The notes under the pieces are model-generated. The model saw nothing but the letters and a program-made list of their open reading frames with translations, did not search any database and had not been told where the DNA came from. Both the position numbers and the translations under genes were made by a program. Positions 12,009-64,000 of a DNA stretch of 64,000 bases are shown here, one piece after another. Within the stretch, counting starts at the first letter, position 1; the number at the start of each line of letters is the position of its first letter. Source of the DNA: a virus; IMG/VR virus record IMGVR_UViG_3300035438_001058, positions 1 through 64,000 of that record, one strand, 5' to 3'.

Positions 12009-13046
12009 TTAGGTTCGTGCGTTTTCAAACACGTTTAGTGTAACTTTACCGTTGTTCTCATAAACAGAGCGCGGGTAAACCCATTCGTTGTGTTCAATGT
12101 GCCAAAGATAATCTTCCAGAAGCTGGTCAATTCCTTTGTAATAAGTGTCTTTGTGGAAACCACCCTTTAGCCCGACTTCAATATCGTTCGTGGTAGTTTC
12201 GAATATAATTGCTGGGTTATGTGCAGACACTTTGGTCTCAGCAACTATGAATTTAAAATCTAAAATTTTGTATCCTTCTTGGATGAGGTTATATACAGGC
12301 GACTCAGGTTGCTGAATAGCGTAGTTGTACAAGGCAGCTTGCGTATAATACCCGTACATTAAGTAACTTTCCTTAAAAAGATACACAGATTTTCCAGTAG
12401 TCTTTAAATCAAAAGGATCTATAGTTTTGTCCTTGTGGTTGATTAGTATCCCGTCAAGTAAAGCTTTAAAATCTTGATTTTTATATTGAAAGTAAATTGG
12501 AACTTGATGAAGTCTCTCTTCCCACGTCTTGCTTTTAACGAAGTAGTTCTGAGCATAAGGACTAGCAGTAACTAATTCCACTGCCTTTACAACAGAATCG
12601 TACTCATCTTTTGCCAATACAGTAATGCCTTCAGGGCAGTTGTTAACCGTGTTGTAATAGTCTACATTATCCTTATTACCCCAGAATTTATCTAGCACCC
12701 ACTTGATACTCATTTTGTATCCAGACAACCAGTAAGCTTTCTCAAAGTTCACTACATCTGAATCTGCGGATAGATGGGGAGGTAAGTTTTGTATGAAAGT
12801 GCCCATAGGCCCGTAAGGCTTATAAACAAAGGAAACTCGGTATCTGTGTTCCCACTCTCGAGGAGCCGTTAATAGACAATCCACAGCAGATCCTATTTTA
12901 AATGATGTTTTGTCCTCTCCCTCGAATAGCTCTGGTTTTTCCTTTTTTAGTTGTAGTATTCTTGGGCTTTGTATTGCTTTTAGCAGGCTGTTTGATATCC
13001 TCGTGGAGGCATAATAATTCTTCGTTACTTCAAGTCCGTTTTCCAT
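12009..13046 (-). CDS. PD-(D/E)XK exonuclease, DUF3799 / exodeoxyribonuclease VIII-like
   Basis: 345 residues. The N-terminus (YYASTRISNSLLKAI) and the nuclease core near residues 200-225 (LLDGILINH...IDPFDLKTTG) match the RecB/Cas4-type PD-(D/E)XK fold of the DUF3799 family. The D...DLK arrangement supplies the metal-binding Asp and the catalytic Lys. Such enzymes process double-stranded DNA ends for phage recombination and fit the neighbouring recombination and replication genes. The ATG at 13046 lies inside the end of the upstream nuclease gene, giving an overlap of about 149 bases. Confidence 0.75.
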   Translation of the reverse strand: MENGLEVTKNYYASTRISNSLLKAIQSPRILQLKKEKPELFEGEDKTSFKIGSAVDCLLTAPREWEHRYRVSFVYKPYGPMGTFIQNLPPHLSADSDVVNFEKAYWLSGYKMSIKWVLDKFWGNKDNVDYYNTVNNCPEGITVLAKDEYDSVVKAVELVTASPYAQNYFVKSKTWEERLHQVPIYFQYKNQDFKALLDGILINHKDKTIDPFDLKTTGKSVYLFKESYLMYGYYTQAALYNYAIQQPESPVYNLIQEGYKILDFKFIVAETKVSAHNPAIIFETTTNDIEVGLKGGFHKDTYYKGIDQLLEDYLWHIEHNEWVYPRSVYENNGKVTLNVFENART

Positions 13047-13404
13047 TCTTTCATTTTTTGATTATTTCGATGCTTATTAGCACGTCTTTTTGTGTTGATG
13101 GTAATAATAATAGTCAATCTACATCCTTCTGCATATACTTGAATATCTTCCATCTAAGGTCAAAATCAGGTCTACGAAGGCCTTTAGTTTCTATTATTCA
13201 CCCGTCTCCTATAAAGTCAGGTGTAAATACTATGTTCTGGTAACTTTGTTTTTTAAGTTTTAGAACTTTGCTTTTTCCTATTCGCTCTATTGCCGTTAAT
13301 TTAACGGCAAAGGAAGGGAACAGCTCATATGATTTCTCATATTCAAACTGTAACCCTTCCTTTGTGAGAGCTTCCGCGGCGAAGCGCTCTAAGCCGTTTC
13401 GCAT
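12898..13404 (-). CDS. Small PD-(D/E)XK nuclease, DUF1064/resolvase-like, four TGA(Trp)
   Basis: 168 residues from ATG 13404 to TAA 12898, with TGA as Trp at 13198, 13114, 13051 and 13030. The core VFTPDFIGDG-W-IIETKGLRRPDFDLRWK has the PDF...IETKG pattern of DUF1064/endonuclease-I-like enzymes that cut branched DNA. A standard-code reading stops just before the catalytic E-x-K and hides the gene. The last ~45 residues are Lys/Thr-rich and overlap the next gene. The nuclease call is firm on motif; the junction-cutting role is inferred. Confidence 0.7.
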
Positions 13405-14804: not shown

Positions 14805-15195
14805 TTGTAAGGGCGGTGTCTCGTACTATGTAAGTTCCTTTAGGCGTGTCTTTGTAAAGCCAAACATGGACAGAGTCCAGACATTCGGAGGCAGATTCAC
14901 AGGACGCAAACGCTCCTCCGATTTGAGAGAAGTATTCTCTTTCAGCGGCGGGAAGTAAAGGGACAGTAATCGGGATGACATACAGCATACGCCCGTCAGA
15001 TTCGGAGAAAGTCTCCACTTCCACAGAGTAAGAATTAAGTCCTTCCTTTTGCAGCTCAATAATTTCGTCAAGTTTCTGAGTTTGAAGTTCCACAGTTTGT
15101 AACATTAAGAAAAATCCCGCAGACATAATAAATCCCCACAAGATTGGGGCAAGTGTGAGTATTACGCTAGGGACAAAATTTTTAAAAGGGGGCAT
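14791..15195 (-). CDS. Membrane-anchored small protein, unknown, 134 aa
   Basis: One hydrophobic segment spans residues ~10-32 (ILTLAPILWGFIMSAGFFLML), followed by a short heptad-like stretch (LQTQKLDEIIELQ) and a soluble domain with a Cys pair (CESASEC). This suggests an inner-membrane protein with an exported C-terminus. It overlaps the primase stop by 14 bases and the UDG start by 14 bases, so it is embedded in the replication operon. No family is recognised. Confidence 0.6.
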   Translation of the reverse strand: MPPFKNFVPSVILTLAPILWGFIMSAGFFLMLQTVELQTQKLDEIIELQKEGLNSYSVEVETFSESDGRMLYVIPITVPLLPAAEREYFSQIGGAFASCESASECLDSVHVWLYKDTPKGTYIVRDTALTNATQ

Positions 15196-16156
15196 TCCCG
15201 GTGTTTTTAAATTGTGATTTTATTAGTTTTTTTATCAGCCTGTATGTCTTACTAGGTTTGTGTGTTTTTTGAAAATCAGAAATGTCCTTATCTGCACAAC
15301 CAGTAGTGATGAACGGTATTCTATGTTTTCTAGCCAAAATGGCTGAAGATGCTAAACCTGCTGGGTCATGATCTAAGAATAAACATACGTACCTGAATCT
15401 ACTTTTCAATATTTTCACGTACATATCTACAACCTTAGAAGCGTCGCCTGAGTCAGAAGTTCCATAAGTCTCACCATTAAAGCAGATTGCTGGGAACCCA
15501 TGTTGCCTAAGTACCATAACATCTTTTATAGAAGATGTAATAAAGCACAGCACTCCTTTCTTCTGTAATTGAAAAAATCCTCCTACGTCTTTACAATTAG
15601 CGTTACCAGCCCACTTCTTAATTTTATCAGCTAATGGTCTGTAAAACTTCATGTGCCCTGAAATAAATTTATAGACAAATATAGGATTAGTTTTTGTACT
15701 TCTCCCTCAAAATGTCTCGTTTCTGTACACACTCTTTGCCAAAAAGCAATACTTGGCTACTATACTCATTGGTATTCAGTACTGTTTCCAATAGTCTTCA
15801 CTAATTTTAATATCTTCAGGTATAAAATCAAAGACTAACTCTTGTACTTCTTTTGCAGCTGCTTGTATTGGCTTCATTTTGGGGATGTCTGCACGAATCC
15901 TATCCATTACTTGTGTGTAAGTTAATCCAAACTTAGTTTCCATAAAACTAACCAGATCATACATTTTACCTATTCCAAAATCATGGAAATACAATTTACC
16001 TACTTTAGACTTTCAAAAACTGCACGTTGGGTGTGAGTCCTTTCTAAGTGGGGATTTGTACATTTTCCCTAACTCTACAACTTCTCCCAGATAATAGGAA
16101 AAAGCAGTTTCTTCTGATACTAACTCTTTTCAGTTTTTAAATTCTGTAGCTTTCAT
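15182..16156 (-). CDS. DnaG-type primase, four TGA(Trp)
   Basis: 324 residues when TGA at 16130, 16013, 15776 and 15707 are read as Trp; a standard-code reading leaves only fragments. The N-terminal part (SPLRKDSHPTCSF-W-KSK) matches the start of phage DnaG primases, where the zinc domain ends in P-x-R-x-D-x-x-P-S-C. The C-terminal half is a Toprim domain with FNGETYG and the metal-binding FLDHDPAG. It makes RNA primers for lagging-strand synthesis. The zinc-binding residues are incomplete. It starts just after a hairpin that follows the upstream gene. Confidence 0.9.
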
Positions 16157-16836: not shown

Positions 16837-17496
16837 TTAATTCTCAGCTTCTAGTACTGTTTTGCGCACAAATTCTAGATTATTCTCGATCTTTTCATCG
16901 AAAACTCCCATAACGCTGCGTGCTTCCGTTGTCCCATCGTTTTGGGTTATAAGTGAGTATTCCATCTTACCGTCCGCGCCTTTATTGACTTTCGTGTAAA
17001 GGTTGTAAGATAGGAATGCGGATAAATTTATCTTAGTAAGTTTCTTACCATTCGTCATTGTTCGCCAGTGAGTAACTCCGTTTACTTCAAATGGTTCGAT
17101 ATGAGCCATTACAAAAACAACCATGTCCTCTCGCTTAATCTCTCTTATTAGTTTATACAGGTTTCATACATCTGTAGCTAAATCTGCCCATTTATCTCTA
17201 GAAGGAGATTCAAGGATAGCCATTTCTTCTGCAGTCATCATGCCGTTAATTGTGTCTATAACAATGGCATTTACATCAGGCCTAGTCTCAGATACAGCCT
17301 TTATAAGTTTGTATATAGTAGCTGGGTCGTCTGTTTCTGCGTAGTTTTTATTCTCTTTATTAAAGTCAGCTTTCCAACCTTTCCAAGAGAGTCCTTTTTT
17401 GTCGGGCGATATATAATAGGTTTTCTTAGGATCTAAAAATCTAGCCCCAGTTGTTTTTCCAGACGCAGATGGTCCGGATATTTGTACTAATACCAT
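16837..17496 (-). CDS. Sak4-like RecA-fold ATPase, one TGA(Trp)
   Basis: 219 residues with the TGA at 17164-17166 as Trp (ATDV-W-NLYKLI). The Walker A motif GPSASGKTT lies at residues 8-16, a Walker B-like AIVIDTING near 75-83, and a typical polar strand MVVFVMAHIEPF follows. This fits the phage nucleotide-binding (AAA_24/Sak4) family that promotes single-strand annealing. A standard-code reading splits it into two. It starts one base into the helicase stop. Confidence 0.75.
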
Positions 17497-18485
17497 TATA
17501 TTAAGTTTATTTGTTCTAGTGTTGCGTTCTTAAAATCTTCTACCATTGGGATTATAACTGTTTTACCGAAACGCTCTTTTATAAGATGCCAGTAAACCAT
17601 ATCCCTTTTGGGATCATTTGGTGCTTTTATTGGTAATCCTCTAGGAAATTTATCCCCTTGAGGAGGTCCGTAATACTCCTTTATTCCATTTACATTTGCG
17701 GGTCTATGACTTATCATGACATAGTCAGAACAGTGGTAAATAGACGAAGCTGCAAAAATGTCGTTTCGTGTGGGATAATGGAGTAACGGATTTGATGTTC
17801 TTTCAGGACGTTCTATGTCCCGATTTAATTGTGATAAAACTAAGAATATGCACCTCAATCCTGTGGATGCAAAGTATTTTTTTAATTCGAGAAACACTGT
17901 CATCAACTCGTCAATGATAGATTTCTCTGTTTCCCCGCTTTTCCCCCTAACTAGGGTAGCGTGATCTATGGATATTACTAAGCCCTTGTTTAAACTTAAG
18001 AGATCTCTTTCCATAGCAAACTGTAATATGGTAGCCCGTATTTGCTCAGGTGTTCCAGGATTGTCTACGTAAAATACTGGAGAGTTTTTTCTATCCTCTA
18101 ATATATTCATTACTTCTGAGTAGTCATCATCACTTAATGGTGTATCAGAAGAATAAATATCCTTGAGAGATTTTTTTATTTTAGAGGATACGTACCTAGT
18201 AAGCTGGTCTTCTATAAGCATCTCAAAATCAAAAGACAGAATTTCAAAAGAATCGTCGTTGAGATCTAGAAAATCCCGCTTTATTTGCTCAAGTATAGTT
18301 GATTTACCACCGCCAGATAATGCCGCAATAGTAAAAATTCTATTTCAGTCTATACCATTTAGCAAAGCCTTGTTGAGCTTAGAAAATGAGGTTTTAAGAG
18401 ACTTAATTTCTCCGGTCCTTAGCTTGGTTATATACTCAGCAGTTACGTCCGCACCATGTGATATATGCCTTACATTTAAACTCAT
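17496..18485 (-). CDS. DnaB-like replicative helicase, one TGA(Trp)
   Basis: 329 residues from ATG 18485, reading TGA at 18345-18347 as Trp (NGID-W-NRIF). Walker A is ALSGGGKST (~residues 57-65); a Walker B-like strand GLVISIDHATL and the arginine-rich QLNRDIERPER follow in the order seen in DnaB. It lacks the N-terminal DnaB domain, so it is a core-only helicase. The upstream gene looks like a loader. A standard-code reading removes the Walker A motif. Confidence 0.85.
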
Positions 18486-19991: not shown

Positions 19992-21139
19992 TACATTTTC
20001 ATTGTTAGCTGTTCTGCATCTGCGTCCATTAACTCTTCGACAATAGTCTCAAATTTTTCGTAATTTAATGGTCCCCAAACAGCTAGAACCCGTCCACTTT
20101 TTTTTCTTTTTTTAATGTGAAAAAGGTTAGGATCTCTAACTCCTTGGGTAAAGTTGTAAATGATATCCCCCACTACTATGGCTGCAAATGCTGGTATATT
20201 AGCACACTCGCAGTAAGCACATACTATTTGACCTTCTTTATTAATGTGCCTTGAAATAGTACTTGATGGTAGAATCATCAAATCTACCGCAAATTCCTCC
20301 AAACATAAATCACAGACATCATCTCTGTACCTACTTACCTTGCCCTGCATAGTTTTATCAGCGGTAAACAATCTGTTGTGCTCAGTAGTATGTAAGAATT
20401 TGTAAGCACATGGACCACATTGATACTCAATGTTTTGTTTTCCGTGAAAATCTGTTCTCATTTTAAACTCATCATTTATCATATAATAAGGCTCTCCACA
20501 AGTAGGGCATACGGCTGTTTGAAAAGTATTGGTGTAGAAATTAGATATACTTTTTTCTGGTAACCTCCCACTTATTTCTTTTATACACGAAGCACAAGTT
20601 AAAATAGTACCTCCATCCACAGTGTAAGGATCGTTTCCACACGGTACCCACATGAAATTAGAAGTTGTTTCTTCTACAACCCCTTGACAGAAGTAACAAT
20701 GCTTAACAGTATATAAAGATATATCTAATTCGTATTCGTACTTTGATTCTAAGTGCGTGAGACTATAATAGCAGTCTGCGGCAAACCTTCCGTCAAATAG
20801 TAGGGAATCAATTTTAGAATTTTTAGCGACGTCTTTGTTGGATAAGGCCTTGTAAAATATGTCCTCTGAATGTCTAGAGTTCAGATTTTTCATAGCTGTA
20901 ATTGCAGAGGAACAATTACTGCAGGTGTGCACACCTTCCAATACATCTATAAATTCGCGTTTTTCGACTTCTGATATTATGGTAAACTCTTCGTTGTCAT
21001 GCAGGGAATCACATAGCACACAAAGCGCGTGGTTATCCCCATAAGGGGCTCTGTACTTTTCAAACCCAACAGGTAAGTAAGCACCTCTAGATCTAATATA
21101 CCGATCTAACTTTGTATTTGATTTATGGTTTCGACTCAT
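19991..21139 (-). CDS. Zinc-finger-rich protein, 382 aa
   Basis: At least eight CxxC pairs are visible (CVLC, CSNC, CYFC, CASC, CPTC, CGPC, CDLC, CAYC), spaced like successive zinc ribbons or treble clefs. The C-terminal basic stretch HIKKRKKSGR may contact nucleic acid or ribosomes. The start shares bases with the SF2 helicase stop. I cannot name a family. Confidence 0.65.
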   Translation of the reverse strand: MSRNHKSNTKLDRYIRSRGAYLPVGFEKYRAPYGDNHALCVLCDSLHDNEEFTIISEVEKREFIDVLEGVHTCSNCSSAITAMKNLNSRHSEDIFYKALSNKDVAKNSKIDSLLFDGRFAADCYYSLTHLESKYEYELDISLYTVKHCYFCQGVVEETTSNFMWVPCGNDPYTVDGGTILTCASCIKEISGRLPEKSISNFYTNTFQTAVCPTCGEPYYMINDEFKMRTDFHGKQNIEYQCGPCAYKFLHTTEHNRLFTADKTMQGKVSRYRDDVCDLCLEEFAVDLMILPSSTISRHINKEGQIVCAYCECANIPAFAAIVVGDIIYNFTQGVRDPNLFHIKKRKKSGRVLAVWGPLNYEKFETIVEELMDADAEQLTMKM

Positions 21140-22308
21140 TTTGTAACACTTTTTAATCCAGCCCCAACTGTTTTAGCGTCTACCCAATTCTTTTCGACAG
21201 AGTTCTTGGTGTAAAGATTAATAAATATGGGTTTCATTTTCCCCTCTTTAAATCTTAGAATTCTGCCAGTTTGTTGCGTATTAGTAAGTTTAGTAGATAC
21301 TCCTGATAAGCATATTGCTCCGTCGACATCTGGCAAGTTAACACCTTCGTTTAAAGCGTCAACTGCTATAAGCAAGTTGAAATCACCGTTCTTAAACGCC
21401 TGTAAAACAATTTCTCTACTCTTTAACTTCATCTTAGAGTGGTAAACTCTACCCCCTACTACAGATCTTAAAGCTTCAGCAAATTTAATACTTTTAGTAA
21501 ACAGCAACCACTTTCTATTTGGCTCAAACTTTTCTATTATAGCTTTGGCGACACTAATCTTGGTAAGATTATTGTAAACCACTAATTTTCTTAGTTGCAT
21601 GGCTCCCCAGTATTGTTTGCAGAGCGTCTTTAGTTCCCTATCGTCAGAATACTGTTCAGCCTTAGCCAGATCAAACACGTTACGATATCTAGAAGATAAA
21701 TTAGGATCTTCACTTCGCAACCTGTCCAGCTTTATTAGCGACGTATTAAACACGTTGTCAAATGCCTTGTATTTACCTGCCATTGATTTGTCCATCCCCA
21801 CTTCTAAGTTGTAGATATTGAATTTAGGTAATATACCTTTATCGACAACATCTAATAAACTCTTGGCGTAAACAACTGGCGCTACTATACCTAAAAACTC
21901 TACGTACTCTTCTTCGTCTGGTATTGTTGCTGTTAAGCACAACATAGACGTAGCTTTAATACTTTGAAATACTTTTCTGTATTCAGGAGAAAGAGCTCTA
22001 TGAACTTCATCTATGATCACGAAATCGTATTCAGCGACATATCTGTAAGCAGATTGAATGCAAAGATAATCAACATTATTGTTATCTCCTAATTCTGCGG
22101 CAAATAATTCCCTAAATTGGTGTATAATGGGGATTCTTGAGGTAATGACTAGTGTCTTAGGAGGGACTCTAAAAGACTTAAAAGCCATTACCGCAAGTCT
22201 GGATTTTCCTACCCCGGTAGGTAGTACAACCGTTCCCCATTTACCAGCCTTATCTCAGGCTGTCAACGCTTCATTTTGAAGTGCTGTTACATTTTCTCTT
22301 AGTTTCAT
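21136..22308 (-). CDS. SF2 DEAD/DEAH-type helicase, one TGA(Trp)
   Basis: 390 residues from ATG 22308. TGA at 22255-22257 is Trp (EALTA-W-DKAGK-W), directly before Walker A LPTGVGKS. Then come DEVHR (motif II), LTATIP (motif III) and a helicase C domain with NEGVNLPDVDGAI and QQTGRILR (motif VI). This is the compact RecG/Rad25-like SF2 helicase often found with crAss-like replication genes. A standard-code reading loses the N-terminus with the ATP-binding loop. Confidence 0.88.
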
Positions 22309-23098: not shown

Positions 23099-24207
23099 GA
23101 TTTAGAGGGTAATGTGATGGCATCTTTGGTCCACCCTTGAAGAGTCTCCCTAATTTGCACCTGTAGCTGGGGTTTAGTGATCCCCTTGTGTGTAGCAGGT
23201 TTACCAGACTCTAAGGTCTTGATACCCATGTTAATCTCCACTATGCCAGCAAAAGCTTTTGTCTTTGCTGCATCATCCATTTTGATGTAGTAAGGAAGAA
23301 TTTTATCCATCCAGACTTGTGGTTTGTCTATCCCTAGAAATTCTAAGGCAGTTGTTATCTGGTCTGTGGCCTTCTTGTTCACCTTTTTCGGATCATTGTC
23401 CTTTTTCTCATCGTCTTTCTTGTCCTCGTCCTTCTTATCTTCTTTCTTATCTTCTTTTTTCTCTTCTTTCTTCTCAGCTGGAACGTCAAACATATCTGTG
23501 TTCAATGCGTGCTGAATTCCCTCTTTTGTTAAGGACAATTTAAGGGCAAGAACGACCTCATAAATTGTCAGAAGCAAGTGAAATGTTGTTATAATGACGC
23601 TACTCATCATAGCGCTATGAAGATTAGCAAAAGGAGAGAAAGTAGGTGGATACCTATTCTCTGCTATTACAGCCGTCAAGAAGGAAGGATGTAAAAATCC
23701 CATCTTCACCTTCATCATTACCCAGAAGCATTCTAATTGACCTGTGTTATGCACAGCGTTGGCCATAGCTAACATATTTACTATTGGAGCGCCGACAGCA
23801 AAGATGAAGGATATTAGAATAATTACTAGGATAGTAGAGCCTAAACCCATTCGCACCCCTATTGGTCTTGGTATAACAAATACGGAAACAAACTCGCCAA
23901 TAGCTTTTGCTAAGCCAAAAGCACCGACAGTACTGATAGCCGCTGCAATTAGGTGAACTGACATTCGCACCGTTACATTTGTCTTTTCGTCTTGCACTGA
24001 ACCTAGTAGTGCTGCTTCTGCTATCAACGCAGATAGTTGTAAACCTATTAGATAGGTAAAGTTGTACTTGATAATTGCTCTAGCTAAAAGAGCTGCAGGT
24101 TCTAATCCCTTTAATTTGGGATCTTTTTGTGCTTGTTTGTACAGGTAATAGGTCAAAAGACCTACGCAAACGAAGAAGGCGACAAATACTATCGTGCTCT
24201 CTATCAT
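23089..24207 (-). CDS. Polytopic membrane protein with charged linker (frameshift donor)
   Basis: 372 residues. Five or six hydrophobic segments lie in residues 1-230 (for example STIVFVAFFVCVGLLTYYLY and STILVIILISFIFAVGAPIV). A Lys/Glu/Asp-rich linker (KKEEKKEDKKEDKK) at ~245-280 leads to a soluble C-terminal domain of ~90 residues. The 0-frame product ends in TAG; ribosomes that slip would add the zinc-ribbon array. It shares its start with the polymerase stop. An inner-membrane platform is likely; the actual role is unknown. Confidence 0.7.
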   Translation of the reverse strand: MIESTIVFVAFFVCVGLLTYYLYKQAQKDPKLKGLEPAALLARAIIKYNFTYLIGLQLSALIAEAALLGSVQDEKTNVTVRMSVHLIAAAISTVGAFGLAKAIGEFVSVFVIPRPIGVRMGLGSTILVIILISFIFAVGAPIVNMLAMANAVHNTGQLECFWVMMKVKMGFLHPSFLTAVIAENRYPPTFSPFANLHSAMMSSVIITTFHLLLTIYEVVLALKLSLTKEGIQHALNTDMFDVPAEKKEEKKEDKKEDKKDEDKKDDEKKDNDPKKVNKKATDQITTALEFLGIDKPQVWMDKILPYYIKMDDAAKTKAFAGIVEINMGIKTLESGKPATHKGITKPQLQVQIRETLQGWTKDAITLPSKSKN

Positions 24208-26099
24208 TATTTATTCCATATTTTAGTTATTACTGCTTTAGCTGGGATATCTAAATGAGTAGTGTATTCTCTAGAAGCATCTAGGCAACACTTCTCTAAT
24301 ATCTTTGCGACAGTGTGTGAGAATTCGTCGGGGCATTCGAGTATTATTTCATCATGCACGAACAGTACGATTTTAAAAGGTATTTTTTTAGCAAATTTTC
24401 TAAGGAGAACTCCAGCCCTCTTACCTATATCGGCAGCGGTTCCTTGTACTGGAATATTCTGTGCCCATCTCTGTATTTTTGAATCCCAGTAACTATAGGC
24501 GTCTCTAATAGCTGGGTGTGGATCAGTGTATGTTAATCTGCACTTCTCCATGTACTTCTTGCACTCTAAATAATCATCAAAGAATGGAACAAATGACTTT
24601 CTACCGCTAACGGGGTTACAAACTACATATCCAAAATTCTTAGCCTCTAATCCTTGGTTGGAAAAGTATGCCTCAAGTTTTGGGAAGCTATCGTAATAAC
24701 CTCTAATAAGAGATTTTGCTCTTGTTATAGGAATATCAAATTGTTCCGAAAGTTTTTTAGCTCCTCCGCCGTAAGCTATCAAGAACCCTATGGACTTGGC
24801 TATACGACGTTCTTCGCTGTCTTTGGTCAAGTTCGGATCATTAAATGCGATCTTAGCAATCTCTAGGTGAAAGTCCGTACCGCTACCGCAAGCTTTGATC
24901 ATGTTTGGGTCTCCAGACTTATCCGCTATTATCCTTGCTTCTTGGTTTGAAAAGTCAGCCACTACAAACGAGTGGCCTTCTTCTGCCATGAAAGCAGATC
25001 TATAGACGTCACCTCTTGAAATATTCTGTAAATTAGGATTAGTGGAAGATATCCTACCTGTACGCATTACCTGCATGAAGGAAGAATGTACCCTTCCAGA
25101 ATAAGGGTTGATGTGCCTTAAAAATTTGTCCCCATAAGAGACTGCCTTTTTCTTGAGCATCTTGTAATCCAAATAAGTCTTGAGTATGCTAAACTTAGCT
25201 TCCTGTTTGAGAAGCACTAGTCTCCCTACACTCTCCTTTATTTCCCCAGTCTTTTTGTCTAGAGTAAGAACATCTACCCCTATTCCTTTCAGGGCGGTTA
25301 CAGCTTGTTTAGGGCTGTCCCAATTTATATCAAATTGGGCAAGTAATTGATCATGCAAACTCTTGGCTTGCTTAGCGACTTCTTGGGCATTACTAAGCCA
25401 CCTATTCCCTTCCAGGAATATTCCGTTTAGCTCCATATCTCCCAAAACCTTAATAAACTCAAACTCGAGTTTTAAGGTACGCTTTAAGTCCAACTCTCTC
25501 GCCTTCTCGACTAATTTCTTTTTTAGTAGAGCCGTGGCTTCCACGTCCATCGCTCCATAATATATTTGTTCTAAGGTAAACGGTGCATCCCCTATAGTGG
25601 AAAAAGAAGTCCGTACCTTTTTAGTAACTGTAGGCGCGAATAGATTGCCTTGGCCGCTGTAATAGGCTCTTACATACCTAGCAACGCATTGCTCGAGTGT
25701 GAAGTGGCCTTTAGGCGCATCTTTACCGCATTCAATAATCTGAGCGGCAATCATAGTATCCCAAAGATTCTCTAATCTTATCCCATAATTACTGGCTATA
25801 ACTTGGTAGTCATACTTGAGATTATGTCCGAGTATGGGCCTATTCGAATCTTGTATGCTTCTAAGTAGGCCTTTAGGGCAATGTTCTCTAGTGTCGATAA
25901 CAACTTGTGTGCCGCCATTCCCAAGTTGGAGCATGATAACCTGACGATCAAACAAATTAGTAAAATCACCAGTAGTCTCCGTATCGAGGCAAATTTCATC
26001 TCAGTCTTTTATTAGGTCCTGAATCTGGTTAAAAGTTATTTGGGAAATATCCCCCTGTTGTATGAGCCATACCCCTGTCGTAGATTGCTGTGTAACCAC
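24207..26099 (-). CDS. PolA-family DNA polymerase with 3'-5' exonuclease
   Basis: About 630 residues. The exonuclease motif LDTETTG lies just downstream of a TGA read as Trp at 26001-26003 (IKD-W-DEICLDTETTG), and GHNLKYDYQ gives Exo II. Polymerase motifs follow in order: VADFSNQEARI (motif A), RRIAKSIGFLIAYGGG (motif B) and LFVHDEIILECP (motif C). The start is uncertain: no ATG precedes the exonuclease, so GTG 26099 is proposed, which overlaps the upstream gene by 71 bases. This is the replicative polymerase of the phage. Confidence 0.9.
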
Positions 26100-38240: not shown

Positions 38241-38331
38241 TGCCAGCAACAGGAGTCGAACCTGTATTTCATTACACGAACCCTTGAACGGAGAACCGTA
38301 TAATGCGCATTACCGCTAATGCTATGCTGGC
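38241..38331 (-). tRNA. tRNA-like element with enlarged anticodon arm
   Basis: Perfect acceptor stem GCCAGCA/TGCTGGC with discriminator A, D arm GCAT-TAGCGGTA-ATGC, and T arm ACAGG-TTCGACT-CCTGT. In place of a 5-bp anticodon stem with a 7-base loop, CATTATACG pairs with CGTGTAATG (nine pairs, one G-U) closing an 18-base loop. No normal anticodon loop can be drawn. It is either a tRNA with an insertion in the anticodon arm or a tRNA mimic. Confidence 0.65.
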
Positions 38332-44389: not shown

Positions 44390-44902
44390 TTAGTTTTCTG
44401 GTTCTGTGACGTTTTCTGGCTTCTCTTCTGGCTTCTCTTCTGGCTTCTCTTCTGGCTTCTCGATTGCACTCAAAGAAACCAATTGATTGTACAAAAAAGT
44501 ATCCGACATCGGATTGATGCAACTTACCGATATCCATTGTATCCGCGCATCTGCGGTTGAAACCTGGAATTTGCATTGTGCTGGCCCTGCATTTAGTTGC
44601 AAGGCAACTTTCAAATGCATCTTGCACGTGTAAGGTATGTTGCCTACTAAAATTTCGGCAGTTCCTGTGCATTGCATCTTCTCTGAAGCAATGGTATATG
44701 TTTTGTCATCGGCACCAACACGAGACTCGATACGAGACGTTGGTAGCCCGCTACATACGTAAGACTTCAGCGTCACCGCCTGTATCGGATCGTTCTGAAC
44801 GAGCGCAAAAAGTTTTTGGTTTACAGAGCCACCACCGCCTGTTGGCGAAGTGATAGCCGCAAAAGCCGCCTTAACGGCTTCAAGTTTAGTTACCTGGAAC
44901 AT
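44390..44902 (-). CDS. Unknown protein with C-terminal EEKP repeats, 170 aa
   Basis: The first gene of the leftward transcript from the divergent region. A Gly-rich turn (SPTGGGGSVNQ), a beta-rich domain with six Cys, and a tail of perfect KPEE repeats (EKPEEKPEEKPEEKPEN). The repeat DNA is a 12-bp tandem array. No known family; the position suggests high or early expression. Confidence 0.6.
   Translation of the reverse strand: MFQVTKLEAVKAAFAAITSPTGGGGSVNQKLFALVQNDPIQAVTLKSYVCSGLPTSRIESRVGADDKTYTIASEKMQCTGTAEILVGNIPYTCKMHLKVALQLNAGPAQCKFQVSTADARIQWISVSCINPMSDTFLYNQLVSLSAIEKPEEKPEEKPEEKPENVTEPEN
44415..44462. repeat. 12-bp tandem repeat inside a coding tail
   Basis: Near-perfect copies of CTTCTCTTCTGG in tandem encode the KPEE units of the gene above. 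Such arrays change copy number by slippage, so this tail should vary between relatives. Confidence 0.75.
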
Positions 44903-48477: not shown

Positions 48478-48757
48478 GGGGGTGCCAGGTATTGATTGCA
48501 CTCATAGGTTTGGTATTACTAGCAAGCAGTCTAAAGACTATAAATTTAAATAATCGACAATAATACTAATGACTTTGGTATCGGACTTCCGTCCTTTTCC
48601 ACAGAAGCAGTTGCTCCTTCTGTTACTCAAGAGCAGCCAGTTTACCAGTACGCATAAGTTTACCACACTAATAGACTATAATATAGGTGTACAGAAGCTT
48701 GTAATTCTAGAATATTAAACGAGTCGTAAGACAGCGGTTCGAATCCGCTCACCTCCA
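48478..48757 (+). ncRNA. ssrA: tmRNA (ssrA) with 33-residue tag
   Basis: The tRNA-like ends are GGGGGTG (48478-48484) paired with CACCTCC (48750-48756) and discriminator A; the T arm is AGCGG-TTCGAAT-CCGCT. A long interrupted helix joins the halves: 5' ACTC, GTTT, GGTATT, CTAG, CAAGC pair in order with 3' GAGT, AAAC, AATATT, CTAG, GCTTG. There is no normal D stem. The tag frame runs from GAC 48556 to TAA 48657, beginning DNNTND and ending PVYQYA, preceded by AATAATC as in the AATAGTC before the Escherichia coli resume codon. tmRNA rescues stalled ribosomes with SmpB and tags the protein for degradation. Confidence 0.85.
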
Positions 48758-48772
48758 CTAAAATTAATTATT

Positions 48773-49042: not shown

Positions 49043-49099
49043 ATCGCTAACAGTCGTTAGGTCTCGCCCTCCATGTCGTAAGATGTGAGGGGGCAATTC

Positions 49100-49171
49100 G
49101 GGGATATGGGGTAATCGGTAACCGGGAAGTCTTCAAAACTTTAGTTGTCTGTTCGAGTCAGACTGTCCTCG
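49100..49171 (+). tRNA. tRNA-Trp(UCA), opal (UGA) decoding
   Basis: Acceptor GGGGATA/TGTCCTC with two G-U pairs; D loop AATCGGTA with A14 and GG; anticodon arm GAAGT-CTTCAAA-ACTTT with anticodon TCA at 49133-49135; T arm GTCTG-TTCGAGT-CAGAC; discriminator G, as in bacterial tRNA-Trp. The tRNA has no encoded CCA. It would read UGA, and UGG by wobble, as Trp, which matches the use of TGA in the flanking genes. Confidence 0.9.
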
Positions 49172-49188
49172 CCCACAAAATTTTTATT

Positions 49189-49698: not shown

Positions 49699-49944
49699 AT
49701 GACTATAAAGGTTAATATTTCTTTCGAACTTTGGCCATATCAACAGTCTTACTCAGTAGAAATACCAGAAGATAAGTTTAAGGAAATGGATAAGTATGTG
49801 GATTCTATAACATCTAATTTAAAGATGTCATTATTATCCCATGTACGTGTCCATCACCCTAATTTATGGTATAAATATTCTCCTTTAGAAGATCAAATAC
49901 TGGCAACTTTAAAAATAGAAAATCACACACACAAAATTAAATAA
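49699..49944 (+). CDS. Unknown protein, 81 aa
   Basis: Beta strand then helix (MTIKVNISFELWPYQQSYSVEIPEDKFKEMDKY). The stop overlaps the GroEL start by one base (TAATG), so they are co-translated. No family is recognised. Confidence 0.55.
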   Translation: MTIKVNISFELWPYQQSYSVEIPEDKFKEMDKYVDSITSNLKMSLLSHVRVHHPNLWYKYSPLEDQILATLKIENHTHKIK

Positions 49945-51545
49945 TGACAAAGAATATTCATTTAGAAAAAGAAACACGAGATAAAATGCTGGAAGGTGTT
50001 TTAACTTTGGCACACGCAGTAGGATCTACACTAGGACCAATGGGGTCAAACGTAGTAATTGAGACTCCTTACGGAGCTACCACAGTTACTAAGGATGGAG
50101 TCACTGTAGCTAAACATATTGATTTAGATGATGCTGTGCAAAATTTAGGAGCGCAGATATTAAAACAAGCTGCTTCAAGAACAGCTACTCTTGCTGGCGA
50201 TGGTACAACAACTGCTACTGTAATAGCTGCGTCTTTAGTACAGTCTGCGCATAAATTAATTACTGCGGGTGTGAAGCCTATTGATATTAAAAGAAGGTTA
50301 GAAATTCTCTTATTAGAAGCTCTGAATAAGATTCGGATTCAAGCTAAGAGTGTTGACCTTAATAGGATTAAAGAGATCGCCACTATCTCAGCAAATAATG
50401 ATGAGGAAATGGGGGCTTTAATTCAAGACGCTTACAACCATGTTGGCCCCAATGGAATGATCACTTTAGAGGAATCTAAGACAGGTCTAACTCATTTGGT
50501 TATGGAAGAAGGAGTTTCTATTGACAAAGGATTTGTATCTCCTTATTTTATCACTGATTCTGCAAAAGGAGAATGTATTCTAGAGAATCCATTTATCTTT
50601 ATTACTGATTCTAAAGTTAGATATACTCAAGATATAGTACCTATATTGGAAATTGCTGCTTCTAAATCAAGGCCCCTTCTTATTATAGGAGACGAAGTAG
50701 ATGCTCAAGCTCTTCAGTTGCTCGTACTAAATAAGATGCGCGGGACAATACAAGTATGTGCTATAAATGCCCCTTCTTTTGGGGATAACAGAACAGCGAT
50801 ATTAGAAGATATTGCTGCCCTAACATCTACTACTATTATAACCGCTAAAGCTGGCACTAGGTTAGAGGATACTCCAGAAAGAGCATTAGGAAATGCTCAA
50901 AAAGTTATCATATCAAAGTCGAAGACTATATTAGTAGGACCTAAGAATAACTTAGAGGCTATTGAGTCTAGAGCTGAAGAAATTCGTAACTCTATGGAAT
51001 TGGAGCAAGATCTTTATTTAAAGAATAGACTTCAAAAAAGATTGGCTGATCTTACTGCTAAAGTAGCTGTGCTTCATGTTGGGGGAGCTACTGAAACTGA
51101 ATTAAAAGAACGCAAAGATCGTGTAGATGATGCTCTAAGGGCTACTGCTTGTGCCATACAAAAAGGTTACCTTATTGGCGGCGGTGTAGCTCTAGCTCGT
51201 GTGTCTTCTTTCATAGAGATAAAAGATGCTTTAATAGATCCTATTTTTATAAACGCACTAACATCCCCTCTAAAATTAATAGCTTCAAATGCAGGGCAAA
51301 CAGGAGAAGTAGTTTTAGCTAAAGTTTTATCTTCAGAAGATCTTGATATTGGTTTTAACGCTCGCACGCTCAAGTATTCTAATTTATTAGAGGATGGTGT
51401 AATAGATCCCGCGTTAGTAGTTGAGCAAGCACTCTCAAACGCAGTATCAGCGGCTTCTATGATATTACTTTCTGCTACGGCAATCACAAATAAAGATAGA
51501 AAACCTCCTTTTAATCCAGGTAATATGGAAGATTATGCTGCATAA
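49944..51545 (+). CDS. groEL: Chaperonin GroEL (phage-encoded)
   Basis: 533 residues, close to normal length. Visible motifs: STLGPMGSNVVI near the N-terminus, the ATP motif AGDGTTTATV (~residues 80-89), and VDDALRATACAIQKGYLIGGGVALAR with the catalytic Asp and GGG. The C-terminus (NPGNMEDYAA) lacks the GGM repeats of bacterial GroEL. It folds phage proteins, with the GroES-like protein as probable partner. It ends in TAA, eleven bases inside the terminase. Confidence 0.93.
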   Translation: MTKNIHLEKETRDKMLEGVLTLAHAVGSTLGPMGSNVVIETPYGATTVTKDGVTVAKHIDLDDAVQNLGAQILKQAASRTATLAGDGTTTATVIAASLVQSAHKLITAGVKPIDIKRRLEILLLEALNKIRIQAKSVDLNRIKEIATISANNDEEMGALIQDAYNHVGPNGMITLEESKTGLTHLVMEEGVSIDKGFVSPYFITDSAKGECILENPFIFITDSKVRYTQDIVPILEIAASKSRPLLIIGDEVDAQALQLLVLNKMRGTIQVCAINAPSFGDNRTAILEDIAALTSTTIITAKAGTRLEDTPERALGNAQKVIISKSKTILVGPKNNLEAIESRAEEIRNSMELEQDLYLKNRLQKRLADLTAKVAVLHVGGATETELKERKDRVDDALRATACAIQKGYLIGGGVALARVSSFIEIKDALIDPIFINALTSPLKLIASNAGQTGEVVLAKVLSSEDLDIGFNARTLKYSNLLEDGVIDPALVVEQALSNAVSAASMILLSATAITNKDRKPPFNPGNMEDYAA

Positions 51546-53778
51546 TGCACAAAATTTCTTAGTCAAAGATGTGGAAATTCTCCATCCTTTGTCTCAAGAT
51601 TATCGTTCTTATTGAAGAGAACACAAAAGAAGATGTATTGAAGGTTATTGGGTGGGTGGCATTTGGATGCCGCCTGCCCTTTACTATTATGTAAACTTTC
51701 ATACTATAAAACTTAATAAAAGTATTCACACTAATACTAAGTCGTACGGTAGACCTTTGTTACGGGATATTGAGTGGGAATTTTTCTATAATTATTCTGA
51801 AGCGAGAGGTTTCTCAGGTTTTAAGAACGATGATAAGTATTCTTGTCATAGAATACTTTTGAATACTGAAGCTACAGACGATTACTTAATTAAATATTAC
51901 CCAGAGACTGTAAATTCTAAGGGGGAAAGAAAGACTTACGTGCCAGCTAGGACGTATATGCGTCAAGTACATCCTTTTGAATCTTCTCCTTTGTTTCAGA
52001 ACGAGATTAGGAATTTTATGATGTTAGGATCTCGTGGATTTGGTAAATCTTTCTCTGTATCAGGACTCATAGCTCATAATTTCTTATTTGATGGAGCTAC
52101 TGAATACAGCGAGGAAAAGATAATGAATCCGGACGCTGCTGAGATATTAGTAGGGGCGGCCAAATCTGATAGATCCGCAGATATTCTTAAAAAAGTGAAG
52201 GATGCATTTGATTTTTTACCCGGAAAACAGATGGTTAATAATAGGACACATCCATCACCATTCTCTAAACGATTTAGCGGATCTTGAGCAGTTAATTCCA
52301 CTATTGCAGCAGAATATAAACGTAAAACAGAAGGTCAATGAACCACAGTAGGTTCCAGATCTAATATAAAGCACAGATCTTTCAACTCAGATGCTTTTGC
52401 AGCTCAAGGAACCAGGCCCATTTTACTAGTTTTGGAGGAAATAGGTATGTTTCCTAATTTAAAGGAAGTACACGCTAACACAGTGGATAACTTAACTGAC
52501 GGTTACCGTAAGACTGGTATGGCTATGATGTTAGGAACAGGTGGTGACATGGAACAAGGTACTTTAGATGCTTCTGAAATGTTTTACGAGCCTGATAAAT
52601 ATGATATATTGTCTTTTTCTAATGACTGAGAGAGTTCTGGTAACATAGGATACTTTGTTCCAGCGTATTTAGCGCTCAATCAATTTAAAGATGCGCAAGG
52701 AAATACCGACATAGCGGCTGCTAAGAAGGAGATTGATTCTGTTAGGCGCAAGAAACGTGGAAACTCAGGATCTTCAGATGCGTTGAATAAGGAAATGCAG
52801 TATAGACCTATTGTTCCATCTGAAATGTTCTTAACTAAGACAGCTAACATCTTTCCTGCCGCTGAAATTAGGAGAAGGCTTTCAGAAGTGCAGTCATTTG
52901 ATCTGTATAACCAGTCAGAGAAGAAAGTTAATCTATATTTCGACCCAAAATCTCAGTTTAATGGTGTATCTTACAATATAAATGACTCTTTAAACGCCAT
53001 TAGCTCGTTCCCGTACAAGGGAGATGATAGAGAAGGGGCTGTTGTTTTATACGAATTACCTAAGTTTATAGAAGACAAGGTCCCGTCAGATGCCTATATT
53101 ATAGGATGTGACCCATTTAGAGATGATACGAATACAGGAGAATCTTTGGCAGCTATATATGTTATGAAAACCTCTAAATACATATCTAGTATAGGGTATG
53201 ATGAGATAGTAGCCTCGTATATTGGTAGACCATACTTCGGTAAAAATGAGGTAAACGAAACTCTATATAAATTGTCCTTATTTTATGGGGGTGCTAAGAT
53301 TTATTTTGAGAATGCAGTAGGAAATGTAAAAGATTACTTTGAGAAAATCAGAAGACTAGACTTATTAGCTAGGCAACCAGTCACAGTTTTTAATAAGAAA
53401 GCTTCTTATGATTCATCCCCGCAAGTTATTTATGGGTACCCAATGTCTAATGATAAAGTAAAATGAGAAGCGATACAATACTTACGCTCTTGGTTATTGC
53501 AAGAACGTGAAGAAAATAAAAGAAATCTGGATTTAATTATAGATCCAGGCCTACTTCAAGAGTTATTGGCCTTTAATATGAGTATAAATACTGATAGAGT
53601 AATGTCTTTAGTAGGTTGTATAATAGGATTAGAAGAAATAAACAATATCTCGAAAAGAAAGCAAGAGTTTTTGTCTGAAGATAGCGCACTTCAGAAGGAC
53701 ATTAATAGGTTAATTATAAATAATAAACGTTTATTTCAAGATGTTAAATTTCCCAAAGCAACGTCTCTCCTATTCTAA
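51535..53778 (+). CDS. terL: Terminase large subunit, five TGA(Trp)
   Basis: 747 residues from ATG 51535 with TGA as Trp at 51613, 52285, 52339, 52627 and 53464; a standard-code annotation breaks it into five or more pieces. The N-terminus (RSY-W-REHKRRCIEGYW) is typical of crAss-like TerL, where this Trp is a fixed residue. Walker A is LGSRGFGKSFS, Walker B LLVLEEIGMF, and the nuclease has IIGCDPFRDD. It packages genomic DNA into the procapsid. It is the best single proof that TGA is Trp in this part. Confidence 0.95.
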
Positions 53779-63450: not shown

Positions 63451-64000
63451 ATGCTAACTATTGATAAGATAAAAACTTTAGAAATCCCTTTTAATTCTAC
63501 TAGAAAGAATAATTTTGGGCCAGCAACTCAAGGACTAGCACTGTACAACGATTCGGTAAACTTATACAAGGCAATTTCTTTAGTATTGTCCAATTACGTA
63601 GCGAGTAGTACTACCGCTGTATTTGCACAAAACGCTGTGGGAAGTATAATGACGGATACAGCGTCCGTTAACTTTACATACAATACCGTTACTCCATCTA
63701 TTACAGCAGATGTAATACCAGGAGGAATAAATCACAACAACTTATTAAATTACGTAGCTAATGAACATATAAATCATGCTACAGTAAGTATATTAGCAGG
63801 CGCAGGGTTAACTGGAGGAGGTGATTTAACTTCTTCCAGAACTCTAAACTTGTCTGATTTAATAGTAGCAGAAACTAAGGGAAGTGCCTCAGAGATTCCA
63901 GTTATAACAGCGAATTCTCAAGGAAGAATTACCGGCTGGGTAAATACCCCTATTTCTATAGACACATCTGCTATAACAAATTTAACCGAAACTATTCAAG
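63451..64000 (+). CDS. Tail fibre protein, partial
   Basis: Open from ATG 63451 to the end of the window (183 codons). NYVANEHINHATVSILAGAGLTGGGDLT and SRTLNLS form the classic tail-fibre signature (G-x-G-L-T-G-G-G-D-L-x-x-x-R-T-L). The C-terminal receptor-binding part lies beyond the window. Confidence 0.8.
   Translation, partial: MLTIDKIKTLEIPFNSTRKNNFGPATQGLALYNDSVNLYKAISLVLSNYVASSTTAVFAQNAVGSIMTDTASVNFTYNTVTPSITADVIPGGINHNNLLNYVANEHINHATVSILAGAGLTGGGDLTSSRTLNLSDLIVAETKGSASEIPVITANSQGRITGWVNTPISIDTSAITNLTETIQ

Follow-up and report, generated by a model that had tools for sequence, protein, structure and literature searches.

Opal suppressor tRNAs are known in crAss-like phages and in other phages that use genetic code 4 (Yutin et al. 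2021, PMC7886860; Lera phage, PMC12386605). Bacterial TrpRS identity elements include G73, A1-U72 and the anticodon bases C34, C35 and A36 (table in PMC9976931), and in the E. coli complex TrpRS reads these three bases across its dimer (PMC12135181). Less clear so far is how a phage UGA=Trp tRNA, with its mismatched anticodon, is charged in a standard-code host. The Azobacteroides phage was considered as a further UGA-recoded precedent and set aside, since a tRNA-Gln is reported there instead. Here we describe a phage tRNA with anticodon UCA, together with relatives whose second anticodon arm suggests a direct answer to the charging problem. We read 49100-49171 as a working phage tRNA-Trp whose UCA anticodon decodes UGA and lets the phage's own genes, early and late alike, in which UGA makes up about a fifth of Trp codons, be read through, and we put the probability of this reading at roughly 0.85.

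A UCA tRNA gene in a crAss-like phage

The window, that is, the whole stretch of 64,000 bases analysed, runs from base 1 to base 64000 of a virus record with 85,208 bases. Its TerL, portal and major head protein match phrog_6681, phrog_6547 and phrog_11589, the set of matches that defines Crassvirales membership, and the closest named TerL relative, at 36.8%, is Cellulophaga phage phi14:2 (Crassvirales, Steigviridae). The record is thus a crAss-like phage contig of about 85 kb. Searches for TerL among viral contigs found 25 and 41 loci; the sole relatives from a genome scan, L128 and L129, belong to a Candidatus Dependentiae MAG, which may reflect misbinning or hint at the host. Elsewhere among the relatives, an insert of roughly 1 kb splits TerL in L013-L015 and L074, and group I intron-like matches, below cut-off, lie near the head gene of G001.

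Table 1. Coordinates of features in the window
Feature	Position	Strand	Basis
Early gene, four TGA, three aligned with homologues	12898..13404	-	TGA list
Primase-like early gene, four TGA	15182..16156	-	phrog_12622
DnaB-like helicase, early, one TGA	17496..18485	-	PF03796
DNA helicase, early, two TGA	21106..22308	-	PF00271, PF04851
DNA polymerase A, early, one TGA	24207..26099	-	PF00476
Phage tmRNA, 340 nt upstream of the tRNA	48478..48760	+	ARAGORN; RF00023, 54.6 bits (gathering 47)
Hairpin with loop GTCGTAAGA, directly upstream of the tRNA	49066..49094	+	motif scan
UGA-decoding tRNA, class I, 4-nt variable region	49100..49171	+	ARAGORN; RF00005; hand-read sequence
Anticodon UCA of this tRNA	49133-49135	+
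Discriminator G of this tRNA	49171	+
GroEL-like gene between tRNA and TerL, synteny anchor	49944..51545	+	phrog_5725
TerL, five in-frame TGA (codons 27, 251, 269, 365, 644)	51535..53778	+	phrog_6681, E=3e-103

An earlier note on this DNA had described a complete cloverleaf with anticodon UCA and discriminator G, had named Aragorn as a check and had made its reading depend on a covariance-model match. ARAGORN calls a UCA tRNA at 49099-49175, under the printed label SeC, and the Rfam model RF00005 matches 49100-49171 with 52.8 bits against a gathering threshold of 29; the E-value of 1.7e-8, over the whole window and both strands, excludes chance for the match, and the earlier description is borne out. 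Read by hand, the acceptor GGGGATA/TGTCCTC forms seven pairs, two of them G-U; the anticodon arm is GAAGT-CTTCAAA-ACTTT, the variable region AGTT and the T arm GTCTG-TTCGAGT-CAGAC; the CCA end is not encoded, and CCC stands after the discriminator. Because the unmodified RNA reaches its lowest energy in a fold other than the cloverleaf (z=-0.71), the call rests on the covariance model and not on free energy. When this record and those of 11 relatives, 12 phages in all, were searched for any U-UCA loop with a 5-bp anticodon stem, a 5-bp T stem and a 7-bp acceptor, the sole matches were the window tRNA and its counterpart in G001. The printed label, the anticodon UCA and the loop CTTCAAA would fit a selenocysteine tRNA, an identity that we reject and give next to no credence: the tRNA-Sec model RF01852 reaches 26.6 bits, short of its cut-off of 47, the variable region is short and the acceptor has 7 bp where tRNA-Sec has a long variable arm and 8 bp, and the TGA codons align with Trp.

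Compared with the bacterial Trp identity table (PMC9976931), the tRNA has G73, the main determinant outside the anticodon, as well as C35, A36, G3-C70 and G4-C69. It has U34 for C34, G1-C72 for A1-U72, G2-U71 for G2-C71, A5-U68 for G5-C68 and G9 for A9. The minor determinants A1-U72, G2-C71, G5-C68 and A9 mark efficient recognition by bacterial TrpRS, not suppressor status; the marks of an opal-suppressor tRNA-Trp, a UCA anticodon and in-frame TGA at conserved Trp, are both found here, and on its own the window tRNA is one more phage opal suppressor of an already-known type. Release factor (PF00472) and TrpRS-type (PF00579) domains had no match in 17 phage records including this one, from which the host TrpRS would be the enzyme that charges the tRNA. 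Given the weak acceptor identity and U34, this charging is a tentative part of our reading.

The surroundings of the tRNA hold other structured RNAs. The tmRNA encodes a 33-residue tag ending in QYA rather than LAA, and its acceptor carries G3-U70; the tag of the G010 tmRNA (L058:6560-6808) ends in VYA, and our guess is that such endings resist degradation. The tmRNA matches in L133 and phi14:2 are weaker, just below the Rfam cut-off. A functional tie between tmRNA and recoding was rejected, as phi14:2 has a tmRNA match (46.0 bits, cut-off 47) and no aligned internal TGA. The segment 48995-49099, upstream of the tRNA, folds with z=-2.33, and GTCGTAAGA-loop hairpins with other stems occur in G001 (near 44482), in G010 (17146 and 17245) and upstream of the L058 tRNA; this hairpin has no Rfam family. 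On the minus strand, a tRNA-like element at 38241-38331 (46.7 bits, A73, fold z=-4.65) has a long folded hairpin with tip loop GUUCAAG in place of the anticodon arm, and unusual tRNAs whose anticodon or D arm is altered were seen in G001 (L040) and G002 (L037, L045).

UGA stands for tryptophan in early and late genes

Both this genome and its close relatives use UGA for Trp. A simple, heuristic gene call that treats TGA as sense gives, for the whole record, 78 genes with 47 TGA and 211 TGG codons, so that TGA accounts for 47 of 258 Trp codons. Alignment with homologues from 11 relatives covers 28 of the 47, and 27 have a homologue with a codon other than TGA; Trp is the commonest residue at 19 of these 27, and the other eight favour eight different residues. 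The earlier note had placed a UGA-reading tRNA upstream of a recoded TerL, and the alignment agrees: all five TerL TGA codons fall in Trp columns, with Trp at column 65 in each of the 18 aligned loci, against a background of 60 Trp in 11,741 cells at positions where the query is not Trp. Trp is likewise the commonest residue at TGA positions in the relatives G001 (14/25), G010 (18/29) and G012 (16/29). The TGA codons are spread along the genes, with a median relative position of 0.46 and 7 of 47 within the last 15 codons; the medians are 0.35-0.46 across the window and its recoded relatives, as against 0.95-0.98, at gene ends, in six standard-code relatives. Counting against the main reading are the eight positions that favour another residue, the lack of an encoded CCA and the missing TrpRS determinants. 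The last of these would also suit charging with Arg or another amino acid, as would G73 and C35, which could fit Arg, and the TCA tRNA of the Lera phage, which is given the tRNAscan isotype Trp or Arg (PMC12386605). Arg, however, is the commonest residue at just one of the 27 positions, and we regard this as very unlikely.

The earlier note had also suggested late expression; a late system is not supported by the evidence here. With strand as a proxy for phase and heuristic gene calls, the early (-) strand has 22 TGA among its 119 Trp codons (97 TGG) and the late (+) strand 25 among its 139 (114 TGG; Fisher p=1.0). Late-only recoding is therefore rejected: TGA is equally frequent in both sets, and its early carriers include the replication genes of Table 1 as well as a Sak4-like gene. 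In the early gene at 12898..13404, codon 69 is Trp (TGG) in three relatives; on the late strand past the window, 65235-80331 holds 15 TGA codons in the structural region. The relatives are biased towards early genes, with TGA at 29/124 early vs 20/186 late Trp codons in G001 (p=0.004), 29/103 vs 13/149 in G010 (p=6e-5), 32/91 vs 12/181 in G012 (p=8e-9) and 25/102 vs 0/119 in G002 (p=7e-10), where some near-terminal TGA may be true stops. In G002 (L008), UGA=Trp is confined to early minus-strand genes. The window tRNA would thus be available already in the early phase, and early-gene recoding speaks against the notion that the purpose of stop-codon recoding in phages is always to delay late genes.

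The distribution of the tRNA follows that of the recoding in part. A UCA tRNA stands at the same site upstream of GroEL in the recoded G001 and G010, and none was detected at the corresponding site of L004, whose TerL is 66% identical and TGA-free. G012 is recoded and has no UCA tRNA on its contig, which ends inside TerL; in G002 the early genes read TGA, yet the search for a UCA tRNA came up empty. Another decoder, even the host's, may therefore serve some of these phages. The host itself might read UGA as Trp or lack RF2, with the phage tRNA merely adding supply, which would suit both G002 and the equal frequency of TGA in early and late genes. A host of this kind would not lead us to expect a TGA share as low as 47 of 258 Trp codons, a TGA-free TerL in L004, or the 119 TGG codons against no TGA on the late strand of G002, and we consider it quite unlikely.

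UCA tRNAs with a second anticodon arm

The UCA tRNAs of two near relatives, G001 and G010, and of the more distant L133 carry a long variable arm, here called arm B. L133 came from a GroEL-based scan that was otherwise unspecific, and is a recoded phage with a UCA tRNA and five TGA in a TerL at 49%. The arms read CACGCC-CTTCCAAAA-GGCGTG in G010 (L058), ACTGGG-GTCCAAA-CTCAGT in G001 and GGTCG-GTCCAAA-CGACT in L133: the stems differ, and the loops share U-CCA-AA, which is the anticodon loop of tRNA-Trp. The window tRNA, with AGTT in this place, has no such arm. The G001 tRNA was missed by both ARAGORN and Rfam, and exemplifies the possibility, raised by Yutin et al. 2021 (PMC7886860), of a suppressor that is divergent and goes undetected.

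The two-armed architecture is conserved across a family of such tRNAs. A scan requiring both loops gave 90 stretches, of which 80 were examined and yielded at least 50 well-formed tRNAs; these 50 were selected for TCCAAA, carry no information on its frequency and called for a control. The control scan, free of the CCA-loop requirement, gave 93 stretches, of which 80 were examined and 17 dropped as ill-formed, none of them with TCCAAA. Among the matches listed, 63 were well formed, 9 of class I and 54 of class II; the arm contained UCCA in 41 of 42 class II tRNAs with G73 (33 of 34 distinct) and in 0 of 12 with Sec architecture (0 of 11 distinct), against an expectation of 7.5% in shuffled arms. 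Over all loci, including some stretches beyond the matches listed, there are 54 distinct two-armed tRNAs. G73 in 54 of 54 is part of the counting criterion; A1-U72 is present in 40, and 43 have the 4-nt distance between arm B and T stem that is seen in class I tRNA-Trp. The loop of arm B keeps U33, CCA and mostly A37, and position 32, usually a pyrimidine in anticodon loops, is G in 29 of 54. Across 46 distinct sequences, which share descent and do not count as independent events, 92.6% of cells in arm B are paired vs 51.6% in shuffles, with a covariation score of 1.04 vs 0.24 (0 of 500 shuffles reach 1.04); sliding the arm by one column drops pairing below 50%. Separately, class I UCA tRNAs with A73 occur in the phage contigs L299, L305, L308 and L311, and possibly accept another amino acid.

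The two-armed phages, too, read UGA as Trp. At several loci, long reading frames emerge only once TGA is taken as sense. Treating TGA as sense raises the long-frame fraction from 0.20 to 0.84 in L261 (0.21 with TAG as sense) and from 0.10 to 0.65 in L315 (0.10 with TAG), and the gain is weak or absent at some two-armed loci, such as L240, L254 and L290. In the longest non-overlapping ORFs of 33 two-armed contigs, 96 TGA positions could be aligned, and the commonest residue was Trp at 60, Tyr at 11 and Ser at 1; Trp was commonest in 22 contigs, and most of the 11 without it had one or two positions. Contigs with Sec-type control tRNAs gave Trp at 0 of 14 positions. A looser tally over ORFs in every frame, antisense included, gave Trp at 66 of 162, Ser at 13 and Cys at 13. 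These counts bear on whether the long arm is an ordinary class II variable arm and the tRNAs are serylated, as might be supposed from the recognition of long arms and G73 by SerRS (PMC7609411). With Ser at 1 of 96 positions and the TGA codons aligned with Trp, and with UCCA at the frequency given above against 7.5% in shuffles, Ser charging is rejected as scarcely credible.

As to origin, four two-armed tRNAs used as queries against named phages reached 80% coverage in 0 of 57 and 0 of 7 records, had no match, and in 0 of 25 records, respectively, and the part-length matches were mostly annotated as ordinary tRNA-Trp. We infer that the simplest origin would be a duplication, in tandem, of the anticodon arm of tRNA-Trp, with a C34-to-U34 change in the first of the two. 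The TerL tree places the window between the two-armed G001 and G010, with uneven support (0.98 for the group when G001 is left out, 0.33 for the joining of G001), for which reason arm B was most likely lost, a separate origin being the alternative. The window tRNA has probably lost the arm, and is read as a reduced, one-armed member of a lineage with tandem UCA and CCA arms.

A proposed handle for TrpRS, and known systems

On balance we favour the view that many UGA-recoding phages have tRNAs with two anticodons, a UCA arm for the ribosome and a CCA arm for TrpRS, and that the window phage is a one-armed descendant. A tRNA with UCA as its sole anticodon loses C34. In the two-armed form, the first arm would pair with UGA on the ribosome, and the second, at the place of the variable arm, could restore CCA for TrpRS, so that the synthetase's anticodon would be separated from that of the ribosome within one molecule. 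The use of arm B by TrpRS is suggested by the architecture; if true, it would be an escape from the rule that altered codon reading also alters charging. Alternatively, the second arm might read UGG, giving a tRNA for both Trp codons, or serve as a decoy for anticodon nucleases, and decoding would also require the U33, CCA and mostly A37 that are kept. On 11 of 54 two-armed contigs there is, in the DNA analysed, a separate ordinary tRNA-Trp(CCA), which argues that arm B is not needed for reading UGG, and the frequent G at position 32 departs from the usual pyrimidine. Such roles are possible, if unlikely.

The locus resembles the suppressors of code-4 phages in its phage-encoded UCA tRNA and in TGA codons at conserved Trp. 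Recoding in crAss-like phages lies mostly in late genes (Yutin et al. 2021, PMC7886860), whereas it is even in the window phage and early-biased in its relatives, and the two-armed form is not described for code-4 suppressors in the portions of PMC7886860 and PMC12386605 available here. As in the theta ribozyme-linked phage suppressor tRNAs (PMC10879173), CCA is not encoded; unlike these, the window locus has no ribozyme family that we could find and the next gene begins 17 nt past the tRNA, and a theta ribozyme at the 3' end was rejected on both grounds.

With tRNA-Sec (RF01852) the window tRNA shares UCA and the loop CTTCAAA, and its two-armed relatives share a long variable arm as well; the 7-bp acceptor, the score under the cut-off, the reading of the codon as Trp and the relatives' U-CCA arm loop set them apart. 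With bacterial tRNA-Trp(CCA) it shares G73, and the halves of the two-armed relatives, A1-U72 being present in most, each match ordinary phage tRNA-Trp; the differences are the UCA anticodon here and the extra anticodon arm there. A tRNA-Trp(CCA) with a 4-bp anticodon stem (PMC13092985) likewise decodes UGA as Trp and keeps the CCA of TrpRS, by near-cognate reading with one arm as that source has it, whereas the two-armed relatives combine a second arm with a cognate UCA. A search of open-licence full texts and of passages in the cited papers found no description of a tRNA with two anticodons, and as far as that literature shows the two-armed tRNA would be an architecture not previously described. 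Phage UGA=Trp tRNAs are already known; we propose that the two-armed architecture is the novel part.
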